NCBI GenBank assembly: GCA_030065235.1
Contig: JASJDC010000002.1
Span: 520,001-584,000 of the forward strand
Origin: Alphaproteobacteria bacterium
Lineage (GTDB): Bacteria; Pseudomonadota; Alphaproteobacteria; UBA8366; Aestuariispiraceae
DNA: 64,000 nt
Direction of reading: 5' to 3'
Notes under the pieces: generated by a model
Told to the model about the DNA's origin: nothing
Databases searched by the model: none
What the model saw: the letters and a program-made list of their open reading frames with translations, nothing else
Made by a program: the position numbers and the translations under genes
Shown: in pieces, positions 12,133 to 17,095 of the stretch
Numbering within the stretch: position 1 is the stretch's first letter
How the letters are laid out: each line of letters starts with the position of its first letter

Positions 12133-12723
12133 CTACGGCGTCAGGAACAGCGACATATGCTGTTCGATCGCCGCTTCCAATTCGGTGTTGAGATCGGCCA
12201 TCAGCTTTTCGGTCATCTCGTACCAGAGAGTCTCCCGCTCATTAATGGTCGCATCCTCATCGACGCTGCCGCTGCGGGTCACCGTCACCGTCGTCTCCGC
12301 CGTCGACAGCGTGTTGGGGTCCTCGGCCTCGAGCCGGACGACGAGCGTCATCTCATAGAGCTGCGCCTGATCGACGGTGACGATACCTTTCAATCCCTCG
12401 GTTTCCGGCAATTGCGTTTCGATGGCGCTGGCTTCGAGCACCGTCAGGACCACCGAGCCGTTGGCGCCGACCGGATCGATGCGGTCGTTGGCCCAGCGGG
12501 CGGCGGTCTGCGCCGGATCGACCGGAAATTCATGTCCGACATGCGGCGCGGTCAACGGCGCCGTATAGCTGATCTTGGAGGAGACATCGGCGACCAGCAT
12601 CGGTATCTTAGGAGAGGAGGCGAAGGTGATGTCGGCGTAGGTCGGCACCTCCACCTCGGTCGCGCAGCCGGCGACGACAACGCCTACAAGAGCCAGCGCC
12701 AGCGCTTTCAAACGCATCCTCAT
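12133..12723 (-). CDS. Putative lipoprotein, last gene of the argD-argF-hslO unit
   Basis: This 196-residue protein has a lipoprotein signal peptide with the lipobox VAGC (Cys20), which predicts anchoring in the outer or inner membrane on the periplasmic side. The mature part is a mixed alpha/beta domain with no motif that I recognise. Its ATG overlaps the hslO stop by four bases, so it is expressed together with Hsp33. No functional link to arginine synthesis is evident. Confidence 0.85.
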   Translation of the reverse strand: MRMRLKALALALVGVVVAGCATEVEVPTYADITFASSPKIPMLVADVSSKISYTAPLTAPHVGHEFPVDPAQTAARWANDRIDPVGANGSVVLTVLEASAIETQLPETEGLKGIVTVDQAQLYEMTLVVRLEAEDPNTLSTAETTVTVTRSGSVDEDATINERETLWYEMTEKLMADLNTELEAAIEQHMSLFLTP

Positions 12724-13727
12724 TCCTCCGCCATCCCATCGCCGACCGCTCGGCCGAAAATCTGTTCGAAAGAGAAGGACCGGTGCGTGTTGCAGAACTC
12801 GCAGGTCATCTCGACCTTGCCGTCATTCAGGATCGAACGCACTTCGTCCTCCGAAATCGCCGCAAGCGCGCCGAGCATCCGCTCGTCCGAACAGCGACAG
12901 CGGTCGCGCACCGGTTTGGGCTGAAAGACTCGGACCCCGTCCTCATTGTAGAGGCGATAGAGCAGCGCGCCCGGATCGAGCGCCGGGTCGAGCATTTCAG
13001 CCTCGGTCGCCGATTTCATGAGCGTGACCGCGCGGTTCCAATCGTCCGCGCCCAAAGCGACGCCGCCCCCGCCGCCTTCCGGCGGCAGATGCTGGACAAT
13101 CAGCGCCCCGGCGCGCCAATGGCCTTCCGCGTCGCGGTTGCAGGCCAGATGTGCGCTGGCGGCGAATTGCGCGGACTGTTCGAAATAGTGGTCGATCACG
13201 TCGGACAAGGTGGCGCCGTCCAACGAGACGATGCCCTGATAGCGCTCGCTGGAGGTGCTGAAATCGACGGTGAAAGCGAGATAACCGGCGCCCAACAGCT
13301 TCGGCACGGGCGCACCAGCCGCCGCCGCGGCGCTCGGAACCGCGCCCTTGATCTGAGCGTAGCCGCGCATGTCGCCGTCATTGCTGACATCGGCGACCAT
13401 GATCGGGACCGGCCCGTCGCCTTTCACTTGCAGGGTGAAGATTCCGTCATATTTCAGCGCACTGGCCAGCCCCACCGCGAGGGCCAGAAATTCGCCGAGC
13501 AGTCGCGCCGAGGCGTCGTCCATCGCATGCCGCGATAGGATCGCATCGAGCTGCGGTCCCAAGCGCACATAGCGGCCATGCAGACCGGTGGCGTCGATCA
13601 TGAAGGGCTGAATCACATCGTCGGTCGCCCAGCCGGTCATATCGATCGACCGGCCTTCCGCGTCGCCCGCGCCGTCGGCGGCCGTCTTGCGGAAATCGAC
13701 CGCAATCTCACTCTTCAAAAAATCCAC
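12720..13727 (-). CDS. hslO: Hsp33 redox-regulated molecular chaperone
   Basis: Hsp33 is a cytosolic holdase activated by oxidation. The C-terminal zinc motif is complete: CRCS near residue 265 and CEFC about 33 residues later, giving the four zinc-binding cysteines. I chose GTG 13727 because AAGGA lies eight bases upstream and the protein then begins with the Hsp33-like VDFLKSEIAVDF. The longer in-frame upstream extension lacks a ribosome binding site. The gene follows argF after 99 bases, the order seen in many alphaproteobacteria. Confidence 0.93.
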   Translation of the reverse strand: MDFLKSEIAVDFRKTAADGAGDAEGRSIDMTGWATDDVIQPFMIDATGLHGRYVRLGPQLDAILSRHAMDDASARLLGEFLALAVGLASALKYDGIFTLQVKGDGPVPIMVADVSNDGDMRGYAQIKGAVPSAAAAAGAPVPKLLGAGYLAFTVDFSTSSERYQGIVSLDGATLSDVIDHYFEQSAQFAASAHLACNRDAEGHWRAGALIVQHLPPEGGGGGVALGADDWNRAVTLMKSATEAEMLDPALDPGALLYRLYNEDGVRVFQPKPVRDRCRCSDERMLGALAAISEDEVRSILNDGKVEMTCEFCNTHRSFSFEQIFGRAVGDGMAEE

Positions 13728-13826
13728 GCGGATTGTCCTTACGAGGTTCTCGCTCAACCACGCCGGGCCAAGCGTCACTCTGTGGCGCTTTATAGGCGGT
13801 CCGAATCGACCGTCCAAGGCGCCATC

Positions 13827-14741
13827 TCAGCCCATGCAATAGGCCAGAACGCCTTTCTGGGCGTGGAGGCGGTTCTCGGCCTCATCCCAGACCACCGATT
13901 GCGGACCGTCGATGACCTCGGCGGTCACTTCCTCGCCGCGATGGGCCGGCAGGCAATGCATGAAGACCGCGTCCGGCGCCGCCCGCGCCATCAGCGCCGC
14001 ATCGACCTGAAACGGCTTGAGCATGTTGTGGCGATTGGCCGCCGTCGCATCATCTTCATCGCCCATCGAGACCCAGACATCGGTCACCACGCAATCGGCG
14101 CCCGTCACCGCAGCAGCGGCGTCATGGCTGATCGCCAGGTCGCAGCCCTCGGCCTCGGCCCAAGCGACGACATCGGCCGGCGGCGGCAGGGTCTCGGGAC
14201 AGGCGATGTTCAGCGTGAAGCCGAAACGCGCGGCGGCGTGAATCCAACTGGTCGCCATATTGTTGCCGTCGCCGGACCAGGCCACCGTCTTGCCGGCGAT
14301 CGACCCGCGATGCTGTTCATAGGTCATAACATCGGCCATCAACTGGCAGGGATGGGTGCGGTCGGTCAGGCCGTTGATCACCGGCACCGTCGCATTCTCC
14401 GCAAGCTCCAGCAGTTTCGTCTCTTCGGTCGTGCGGATGACGATGGCGTCGACATAGCGCGACAGAACCCGCGCGGTGTCGGCGATCGTCTCGCCCCGGC
14501 CCAATTGCGATTCGGCGGGCGTAATGACCACCACCTCGCCGCCCAGCTGTTTCATCCCGACATCGAAGCTGATCCGAGTGCGGGTCGAGGGTTTCTCAAA
14601 GATCAGCGCCAACGCCTTGCCCGCCAGCGGCTTTTCCTCGGCGCGCGGCCCGCCCTGTCGAAAGGCGTTGCCTTCCGACAGCATCGACCGCAGCGCGTCG
14701 CCGCTGAAATGATCGAGATCGAGAAAATGCTTCACGCTCAT
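13827..14741 (-). CDS. argF: Ornithine carbamoyltransferase
   Basis: This 304-residue enzyme forms citrulline from ornithine and carbamoyl phosphate in arginine synthesis. The carbamoyl-phosphate motif STRTR is at residues 52-56, HPCQ at 130-133, and the ornithine-loop HCLP motif is near 260. I chose ATG 14741, preceded by AAGG nine bases upstream. A start eight codons further up would overlap argD. Only four bases separate it from the argD stop. It should share the attenuator-controlled transcript that starts upstream of argD. Confidence 0.95.
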
Positions 14742-14745
14742 GGCT

Positions 14746-15987
14746 TTAGGCCTTGGCTTTCGCACTGAGAGAGACCGCCGTCTCTGTCAGAATACGGATC
14801 GCCTCGTCGCAATCGGCGTCGGTGACGATCAGCGGCGGCAACAGCCGGACGACATTGTCGGCGGCGCCGACCGTCAGCAGCCCGCCCGCCATCAGCGCCT
14901 TGATGACATCAAGATTGACGTGTTCCGGCGCGCATTTCAGGCCCAGCATCAGCCCGGCCCCGCGCGCCTCGACAAAGACGTCGCCATGGGCGGCGACCAG
15001 GTCTTGCAGCTTGAACCAAAGCCGCCGTGCAACCGCATCGACGCCGTCGAGGAAGCCGTCCGCCAACAGGACATCGAGGACCGCGTTCCCCACGGCCATC
15101 GCCAATGGGTTGCCGCCATAGGTCGTGCCATGCACGCCGGGCTCCATGCCGCTGGCGCCTTTATGGGTCGCGAGCACGGCGCCAAGCGGGAAGCCGCCGC
15201 CGATCCCTTTGGCCGAGGCGAGAATGTCCGGCGCGACGCCGGCCCATTCATGCGCCCACATCTTCCCCGTCCGGCCCATGCCGCATTGGATCTCGTCGAA
15301 GATCAGCATCAGGCCGAACTCGTCCGCGGCGGCGCGCAAGTCGCGCAGATAGTCCAGCCGCGCCGCGTTGATCCCGCCCTCGCCCTGCACCGGCTCGACA
15401 GCGATCGCCGCCGTCTCCGGCCCGATCGCGTCGCGCAAGGCGTTCATATTGCCGAACGGCACGGAATCGAACCCGTCGGCCGGCTTGCCGAAGCCTTCGA
15501 GATATTTCGCGTTGCCGGCCGCCGCGATGGTCCCCAACGAGCGACCGTGAAAAGCGCCGGCGACCGTGATCGTCCGCCAGCGTTCCGGCGCGCCGTTCTT
15601 ATAATGATAGCGCCGACCGGCCTTGATCGCCGCCTCCATCGCTTCGACGCCGGAATTGCAGAAGAAGGCGACATCGGCGAAGGAGTCTTCGGTTAGCCGC
15701 CGGGCGAAACGCTCCTGCTCCGGGATCACAAACAGGTTCGAGGCGTGCCACAGTTTCTCCGCCTGATCCTTCAGCGCCTGCACGACATGCGGGTGCGCGT
15801 GGCCGACAGAATTCACGGCGATGCCGCCATAGAAATCGAGATATTTCTTGCCGTCCGTATCCCAGAGATGGGCGCCCGCGCCGCGCTCCAACGCAATCGG
15901 GAAACGGCCATAGGTGTTCATGACGGCGGAAGGCGCGGGTTCCGTCTTGCCGGGTTCGGTTGCTTTTGCTTGAGATGCGGTCGACAT
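14746..15987 (-). CDS. argD: Acetylornithine aminotransferase
   Basis: This class III PLP aminotransferase of 413 residues converts N-acetylglutamate semialdehyde to N-acetylornithine. FDEIQCG (PLP-contacting Asp231) and [13 protein letters not shown] with Schiff-base Lys260 are present. The N-terminus is about 20 residues longer than usual before [17 protein letters not shown] 15987 has GGAG seven bases upstream, while the internal Met23 is an alternative start. It is first in argD-argF-hslO. About 60 bases upstream lies a rho-independent terminator preceded by an Arg-rich leader peptide, so its expression is probably attenuated by arginine supply. Confidence 0.95.
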
Positions 15988-16044
15988 GGTCTGCTCCGTG
16001 CGTTTGGGTGGCGTCCCGACCTTCGGACCCCAATCCCGCGCCCT

Positions 16045-16077
16045 GAAACAAGAAACCGCCGGACAGGAGTCCAGCGG
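16045..16077 (-). terminator. Attenuator terminator upstream of argD
   Basis: On the minus strand, CCGCTGGAC (16077-16069) and GTCCGGCGG (16064-16056) form a nine-pair stem closed by a four-base loop. A T-rich run, TTTCTTGTTTC, follows at 16055-16045. It lies between the leader peptide and the argD start, so its likely job is conditional termination. It could also serve as the ordinary terminator of the upstream permease operon. Confidence 0.75.
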
Positions 16078-16105
16078 CGATCGGGCTCATTTCAGATCGG
16101 TTGCC

Positions 16106-16207
16106 TCAACCGATATGACAACGCTTCCCGCGCGCCGCTTTTGAGGAGCGGCGTCGACGCGACAGGCCGCTCAGAATCGGCGCGGCGATGTAGGCGACAG
16201 TTGTCAT
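16106..16207 (-). CDS. Putative arginine leader peptide (attenuation) upstream of argD
   Basis: A 33-codon reading frame runs from ATG 16207 to TGA 16106. Codons 17-20 are four consecutive Arg codons (CGT CGA CGC CGC), and two more Arg codons are at 26 and 29. It is followed by a stem-loop spanning the stop codon (ATCGGTT 16096-16102 with AACCGAT 16108-16114) and the terminator at 16045-16077. Segments near the Arg codons can pair in mutually exclusive ways: GAGCGGC 16172-16166, GCCGCTC 16152-16146, AGCGGCG 16139-16133 and CGCCGCT 16079-16073. Ribosome stalling at Arg codons would mask the second segment and free the third to disrupt the terminator. No Shine-Dalgarno is visible, which fits a leaderless start. 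Confidence 0.7.
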   Translation of the reverse strand: MTTVAYIAAPILSGLSRRRRSSKAARGKRCHIG

Positions 16208-16213
16208 GCAGGC

Positions 16214-16242
16214 GGTGTAGCGCAGGGACGCTCGCGCCGCAA
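16214..16242 (-). promoter_or_regulatory. Candidate promoter for the arg leader transcript
   Basis: On the minus strand, TTGCGG (16242-16237) and TACACC (16219-16214) are separated by 17 bases. The predicted start site falls on or next to the A of the leader peptide ATG, giving a leaderless message. The hexamers are poor matches to consensus, so this is tentative. Confidence 0.3.
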
Positions 16243-16261
16243 GCGTTCAAACCCATACGCC

Positions 16262-17095
16262 TCAGGCCTTGATCTTATAACCGATGCCGACGAGGTAGCG
16301 CCCGAAAGCCAGCGCCAAGACCGCGGCGACGCCGATCACCAATGCGCTGAGCCCGATCGGCGCGTCCGCCACGCCGGTCATGCCGAAGCGAAATCCATTG
16401 ACCAGATGGAAGATCGGGTTGAACAGCATCAGGCTGCGAAACGGCTCGGCCAACGCGGCAAGCGAGAAAAAACTGCCGCTCAGGAACAGCAGCGGTGCGA
16501 TAGCGAAGGTCTCGATGGCCGACAGCGAGTCCCATTTCGGCGAATGCATGCCGGTGGCGAGCCCGACGACCGACAGGATCAGCGCGCCAAACGTCATGAA
16601 AAAGAGCAGCGCCAGCGGCCTGTCCGGCAGACCGGCCCCGAAGGGCGCCAACACCGCCCAGGTCGGGGCCGCGATCATCACCGACACGATCATCGCCGAA
16701 ATCAGATAGCCCGCCAGAATCTCGCCGGGCGACAGCGGCGCGCCCCAAAGATCGCCGATCGTCCCTTCCAGCTTCTCATGCAGCACCGAGAAGGCGGTGC
16801 TTTCGAAAGCACGTTGGGCCCCGGCGGCGATGATCAGGCCAGGCGCCAAGAAGGTCAGGAACGGCAGGCCGGCGACCGTCGTCACCGCCTCGCCAAGCGC
16901 GATCCAGATCACCGAGGCGAACAGCAACGCCTGCAACGCGGGGCCGAAGATCGCCAGCCGGAAGAACATGATTTCGCCCACCACCTGCCGCCGGATGATC
17001 GCCGCCAGCCCACGCCAATTGACGCCACGATAGCGCCGCGGCGGCGCCAGCCCAAGCGATGCGCCCTGCGGGACCGGATGCTCGGTCCGCGCCAT
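16262..17095 (-). CDS. ABC-2 type transporter permease (second of tandem pair)
   Basis: This 277-residue inner-membrane protein has about six hydrophobic helices and the ABC-2 permease pattern: a cytoplasmic N-terminus, then AIFGPALQALLFASVIW, the central conserved loop (GTIGDLWGAPLSPGEI) and a C-terminal helix. It is clearly paralogous to the preceding gene, sharing RRYRGVNWRGL versus RRYGAVNWVGV near the N-terminus, matching mid-loop sequences and a shared Lys-Ala C-terminus. The stop of the first gene and this start are three bases apart. No ATP-binding subunit is adjacent. The substrate is unknown; polysaccharides, lipids or drugs are typical of the family. Confidence 0.88.
   Translation of the reverse strand: MARTEHPVPQGASLGLAPPRRYRGVNWRGLAAIIRRQVVGEIMFFRLAIFGPALQALLFASVIWIALGEAVTTVAGLPFLTFLAPGLIIAAGAQRAFESTAFSVLHEKLEGTIGDLWGAPLSPGEILAGYLISAMIVSVMIAAPTWAVLAPFGAGLPDRPLALLFFMTFGALILSVVGLATGMHSPKWDSLSAIETFAIAPLLFLSGSFFSLAALAEPFRSLMLFNPIFHLVNGFRFGMTGVADAPIGLSALVIGVAAVLALAFGRYLVGIGYKIKA

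Follow-up and report, generated by a model that had tools for sequence, protein, structure and literature searches.

The window, a 64,000-nt stretch of alphaproteobacterial DNA, carries the gene cluster argD-argF-hslO on its minus strand (Table 1). The same gene order is found on pSymB of Sinorhizobium meliloti. Permease genes of an ABC-transporter operon lie upstream, on the same strand. The genome of the window (G000) has a second ornithine carbamoyltransferase because of an apparent arginine deiminase cluster (L150:370-4993; G000:C2 247869-252492). This cluster comprises an APC-type permease, an arcA-like gene, the second carbamoyltransferase and a carbamate kinase-like gene.

argD is preceded by a leader region, also encoded on the minus strand, for which a sequence-only reading of this DNA had named no strand. 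The leader open reading frame has 33 codons. Codons 17-20 all specify arginine, and two further Arg codons are found at positions 26 and 29. A perfect hairpin (ATCGGTT-GAG-GCAACCGAT) spans the stop codon at 16114-16096. A terminator scan places an intrinsic terminator (GCCGCTGGACTCCTGTCCGGCGGT followed by TTCTTGTTTC) downstream, at 16078-16055. The U-tract of this terminator extends to 16046, which leaves 58 nt to the argD ATG at 15987. Five segments are complementary in an overlapping chain (1:2, 2:3, 3:4 and 4:5). All these elements had been proposed in the sequence-only reading and were recovered at their positions, with the same pairings.

The 162-nt leader stretch folds with a free energy of -74.8 kcal/mol (z = -3.99), and none of 200 shuffled sequences was equally stable. 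In the free RNA, the partner of segment 3 is the upstream region 16186-16178 (approximate limits) and not segment 2, with the 1:2 pairing nested inside. The pairing that sequesters segment 3 is thus more elaborate than a simple chain. Rfam 15 covariance models, including those of the T-box and of riboswitches, gave no meaningful match at 15900-16400.

Table 1 Features of the argD-argF-hslO locus in the window. G003 is the related genome described in the following section.
Feature	Position	Strand	Basis
Putative -35 element, TTGCGG	16237-16242	-	Sequence; block partly in common with G003; weak consensus match
Putative -10 element, TACACC (17-nt spacer, 6 nt before leader ATG)	16214-16219	-	Spacing as in G003
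Leader ORF, 33 codons, MTTVAYIAAPILSGLSRRRRSSKAARGKRCHIG	16106-16207 (ATG at 16207, stop ends at 16106)	-	Counterpart in G003
Arg control codons 17-20, CGT CGA CGC CGC	16148-16159	-	Sequence; antiterminator prediction
Segment 1 (GAGCGGC), partner of segment 2	16166-16172	-	Sequence; present in MFE fold
Segment 2, overlapping the Arg codons, partner of segment 1 or 3	16146-16152	-	Sequence; fold
Segment 3 (AGCGGCG), 5' strand of antiterminator	16133-16139	-	Computed pairing with segment 4 once the ribosome covers segments 1 and 2
Hairpin across leader stop codon, ATCGGTTGAGGCAACCGAT	16096-16114	-	Fold; clear G003 counterpart absent
Segment 4 (CGCCGCT), common to antiterminator and terminator	16073-16079	-	Terminator scan; ribosome-position folding
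Segment 5, 3' strand of terminator	16056-16064	-	Terminator scan
Intrinsic terminator hairpin (about -17 kcal/mol) and U-tract	16046-16078	-	Terminator scan; folding
argD (acetylornithine aminotransferase, class III)	14746-15987	-	PF00202
argF (ornithine carbamoyltransferase)	13827-14765	-	PF00185/PF02729; TIGR00658 over cut-off
hslO (Hsp33), third gene of the cluster	12720-13817	-	PF01430

Conservation of the argD leader and its putative promoter

The DNA upstream of 122 argD genes was collected. The loci were fetched by ArgD similarity, and some genomes are represented twice, once per search. These regions were screened for frames 8-50 codons long in which a stretch of five residues contains four or more Arg, with a terminator no more than 150 nt downstream. 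This combination is found in three of the 122 regions, those of the window, of G003 and of L082, as compared with 4 of 2440 shuffled regions. The joint rate of leader and terminator in shuffles is 0.05% for the window region and 0/2000 for G003. The match in L082, an Aurantimonas record, was attributed to chance: its 48-codon frame is unmatched in the other Aurantimonas record (L077).

G003 is the closest genome holding argD. The two genomes share the family but not the genus, and their ArgD proteins are 74% identical. At the same place before argD, G003 shows the leader MIGLKTIERLARQRRRRGFIAAAHGCFMVG and a terminator having the same stem as in the window (GCCGCTGGAC...GTCCGGCGG) with a poor U-tract (TTCCGCATTTT). 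In this comparison of two sequences, the Arg run, the pairing segments, the terminator, its position and the promoter spacing are kept while the rest of the peptide differs. Thus, the Arg codons, not the peptide, are conserved. Among 12 other members of the family, 11 lack the device upstream of argD; in G008, which is the second genome from the genus of G003, the contig carrying argF ends inside argD. The conservation check suggested along with the sequence-only reading turned out positive in another genus. At argD, the device has thus been seen in two genera and not family-wide. The named members of this family (Aestuariispiraceae, Rhodospirillales) appear to be Pacificispira, Marivibrio and Aestuariispira. 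A search with the leader DNA among 59 relatives gave no DNA-level match outside its own genome, because the leader evolves too fast.

A different arrangement is seen at argD of S. meliloti pSymB (L276) and of L068, L079 and L128. There, a short GC hairpin with a T-run lies before argD, downstream of a TTGAC promoter, and an evident Arg leader ORF is absent. These hairpins could attenuate argD in another way or stabilise the 5' end.

A promoter-like block precedes the leader in both genomes. It reads TTGCGG-N17-TACACC in the window (16242-16214) and TTGCGC-N17-TAAATC-N6-ATG in G003, and ends in both cases 6 nt before the ATG. The two blocks are identical at 21 of 53 positions (permutation p 0.04) and match the consensus weakly. 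The argD leader transcript is probably leaderless, beginning with the A of the ATG or right beside it. In other families, five argC leaders are arranged comparably and have a perfect TTGACA. A leaderless trpL attenuator has been experimentally established in S. meliloti (PMC7298713, PMC10117765).

Ribosome position and antiterminator folding

The ribosome was placed codon by codon on the leader, the covered and upstream RNA was removed and the rest was folded up to the terminator. With the A site on Arg codon 17, 18 or 19 of the window leader, the antiterminator (3:4) is predicted to form with a probability of 0.37, 0.41 or 0.52, respectively. This probability drops to 0.01 at codon 20 and to 0 at all later codons. 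In G003, the probability is 0.82 at Arg12, 0.39-0.43 at Arg14-16 and 0.88 at Arg17, then at most 0.06 from codon 18 on. When the leader was shuffled and the terminator kept, the same pattern arose in 2/400 cases for the window and 7/400 for G003. Once the ribosome has reached the stop codon, the terminator has a predicted probability of 1.0; it is also present in the fold of the free RNA. The equilibrium preference for the antiterminator is about even in the window, where an additional early peak is observed at codons 5-8 (0.26-0.70). Kinetics must therefore matter. The proposal that a stalled ribosome frees segment 3 to pair with segment 4 is supported, since the folding yields the antiterminator at the Arg codons in the window and in G003 alike.

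We propose, with a probability of about 0.82, that the device puts argD-argF(-hslO) under ribosome-mediated transcription attenuation, with charged Arg-tRNA as the signal. Transcription would start at or beside the leader AUG, with the ribosome trailing the polymerase. If Arg-tRNA is ample, the ribosome would clear codons 17-20 and halt at the UGA. Segment 3 would then be captured upstream, by segment 2 or by the segment upstream of segment 1, segment 4 would pair with segment 5, and transcription would stop 58 nt before argD. If Arg-tRNA is scarce, the ribosome would pause on the Arg run and mask segments 1 and 2. Segment 3 would pair with segment 4, no terminator would form, and argD-argF would be made. 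In this way, the operon is predicted to respond to arginine supply.

By chance, a short Arg-rich frame, common in GC-rich DNA, could have come to lie ahead of a terminator that marks the 3' end of the upstream ABC-transporter operon. The sequence is indeed GC-rich, with frequent Arg codons, the permease genes upstream have the same orientation, and one apparent chance match (L082) is present among the 122 regions. However, the low joint rates in shuffles, the conservation in another genus with a different peptide and the link of the antiterminator to the Arg codons in both the window and G003 argue against chance. Moreover, G006 and G007, which have a similar upstream permease gene, show neither leader nor terminator there. 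We consider this explanation improbable.

Two further explanations accept the leader as functional and assign it another mode of action. In one, the nascent peptide would itself sense free arginine or ornithine and stall the ribosome, in place of slow Arg decoding. Leader peptides related to that of speF are ornithine-sensing arrest peptides, a precedent for such a mode. In addition, the Salmonella speF leader ORF, with its consecutive Arg codons, responds to arginine (PMC6386406). Yet arrest peptides conserve their sensing residues, whereas the G000 and G003 peptides are alike in little beyond the Arg run. A conserved sensing peptide of the SpeFL type was thus not found in this pair, and the leader has no Pfam family match. 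An arrest peptide is therefore very unlikely. In the other, the terminated leader would act mainly in trans as a small RNA or small mRNA, like rnTrpL/peTrpL of S. meliloti, with cis control being secondary. The leaderless attenuator RNA of S. meliloti does act in trans (PMC7298713), but cis control accounts for the position and the pairing logic of the argD leader, and we give a mainly trans role very little credence. Attenuation in cis by charged Arg-tRNA is the reading retained below.

Arginine-rich leaders before argC

In G000, argC is also preceded by an Arg-rich leader, MIRRANSANTTRTRRRR, and a terminator (L170:1222-1336, G000:C12). Leaders with an intrinsic terminator are likewise found before argC in G003 (MLRRGEQVSAHGTRR; L191, reverse strand) and G008 (MLRRNEQGLARGTRR; L195, reverse strand). 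These three leaders have in common a TTGxxx-N18-CATA promoter-like sequence and all end with CGA CGA stop. The argC leader sequences given here all run to a stop codon. In another family of the order, L174, L176 and L181 (genus g14) carry MSQMRRRMRGEK, MVELRRRSRGEM and MFELRRRFRGEM. They are 12-codon ORFs of the form M-x-x-[LM]-RRR-x-RGE-[MK] with nearly identical nucleotides (CGACGACGTnnnCGAGGTGAA). They also have a conserved GAGTCTCTGAAAGACGGATGCTTCGA-like element, then a terminator before argC. A class-wide sample added MTKLVAIRRPNTARPRSR, MKSGRNIIRRRRPAPTARGR, MTSRAARRRRTGTDRHARLR, MISPTLLRSRRRRSQKR and MISFAFLRSRRRRLSKRREGVRA (L239, L248, L250, L259 and L262). All five look leaderless, with a perfect TTGACA some 30 nt upstream of the ATG. 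The leaders of L259 and L262 both read MIS...LRSRRRR...KR, with a CGCCGCT-loop-AAGCGG layout much like that of the window argD leader.

An Arg-rich frame with TTGAC at leaderless distance occurs in 5 of 86 argC regions, where shuffles expect 0.13 and ten other residues give 0; as this promoter-linked criterion was chosen after the cases were known, the count is supportive and not a clean test. When the promoter is not required, the excess is modest (17 versus 9) and several of the frames are rpsI ends. Thus, only the promoter-linked cases and those conserved within a clade are counted as evidence. Arg-rich frames near argC in many relatives correspond to the end of rpsI and its terminator and were discarded.

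In the classical antiterminator test, L239 and L262 behave as expected of an attenuator. The test was negative for L248, L250 and L259 as well as for the argC leaders of G000, G003, G008 and three f3 genomes. Rfam gave no relevant match at the argC leaders. Cobalamin riboswitches (RF00174) are present near two argC loci, on the minus strand (L176:2999-3175 and L181:2864-3012). Upstream of argG, argJ and carA in G000 and G003, no Arg leader was found.

CGA is favoured in the leaders. It represents 30 of 74 Arg codons in 13 leaders versus 5% of the Arg codons in eight window genes, a descriptive figure since the leaders come from different genomes, some of them related. The sensitivity of attenuators to amino-acid supply depends on codon choice (PMC1183508). 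The Arg leader peptides may form a broad undescribed alphaproteobacterial regulon replacing ArgR. Its members would often be leaderless and biased to CGA. They would precede argC in several families and argD-argF in two genera, and some of those at argC would not act through a simple antiterminator. We see the odds of this wider view as even.

Arginine control and comparison with known systems

The sequence-only reading had referred to ArgR as the usual arginine device in enterobacteria. ArgR is absent from the genome of the window. The ArgR profile (PF01316) matched none of 59 genomes, the window's and 58 relatives, while nine control genomes were positive. It exceeded the cut-off in 5/241 members of the class. 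This scarcity agrees with the finding that ArgR is conserved in gammaproteobacteria and absent in other proteobacterial classes (PMC5343134).

No arginine-specific attenuator on arg biosynthesis genes was found in the open-access literature searched or among Rfam families. Vitreschak and co-workers (2004) compared attenuators across Proteobacteria, reportedly without an arginine case. To our knowledge, arginine has so far been missing among the amino acids whose synthesis genes are subject to classical leader-peptide attenuation. We also know of no general answer so far as to how arginine synthesis is controlled in Alphaproteobacteria, which mostly lack ArgR. The argD and argC leaders suggest an undescribed route for this control, and provide a concrete, quickly testable answer. 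With their rare CGA control codons, they would be natural reporters of Arg-tRNA charging. They also offer a set of likely leaderless mRNAs for the study of coupled transcription and translation.

Judged by every feature open to computation, the argD leader belongs to the leader-peptide attenuators and probably works like them. Its predicted arginine feedback on arg genes is shared with the ArgR regulon, where it is exerted by a DNA-binding repressor. In Pseudomonas carAB, a leader peptide and attenuation are also associated with an arginine-linked operon, but attenuation is attributed to pyrimidines and arginine acts at the transcriptional level (PMC4997734). Another alphaproteobacterial element, the odc1 motif, differs in being translational (PMC8632094). 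In the Salmonella speF leader (orf34), ribosome pausing at consecutive Arg codons also links expression to arginine (PMC6386406). This leader controls ornithine decarboxylase via Rho, RNase G and translation, and has two consecutive Arg codons (PMC6386406). Unlike the argD leader, it has a conserved peptide and no antiterminator directed against an intrinsic terminator.

Other systems are alike in their architecture. Tandem control codons are likewise seen in uORFC-8-2, the cysS leader of the alphaproteobacterial order Rhodobacterales, for which ribosome-mediated attenuation has been predicted (PMC8632094). Its codons are for Cys and its gene is cysS, whereas the argD leader has Arg codons. 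The leaderless trpL of S. meliloti (rnTrpL/peTrpL) is an alphaproteobacterial attenuator whose RNA starts at the leader AUG (PMC7298713). It responds to Trp, whereas the argD leader has Arg codons and a predicted start. Finally, the trp, his, leu, thr, ilv and phe attenuators of Proteobacteria combine, as here, a short ORF having a run of cognate codons, alternative stems and a terminator before the first biosynthetic gene. They respond to charged tRNA, as we infer for the argD leader. What differs here is the amino acid, arginine, and the operon, argD-argF.
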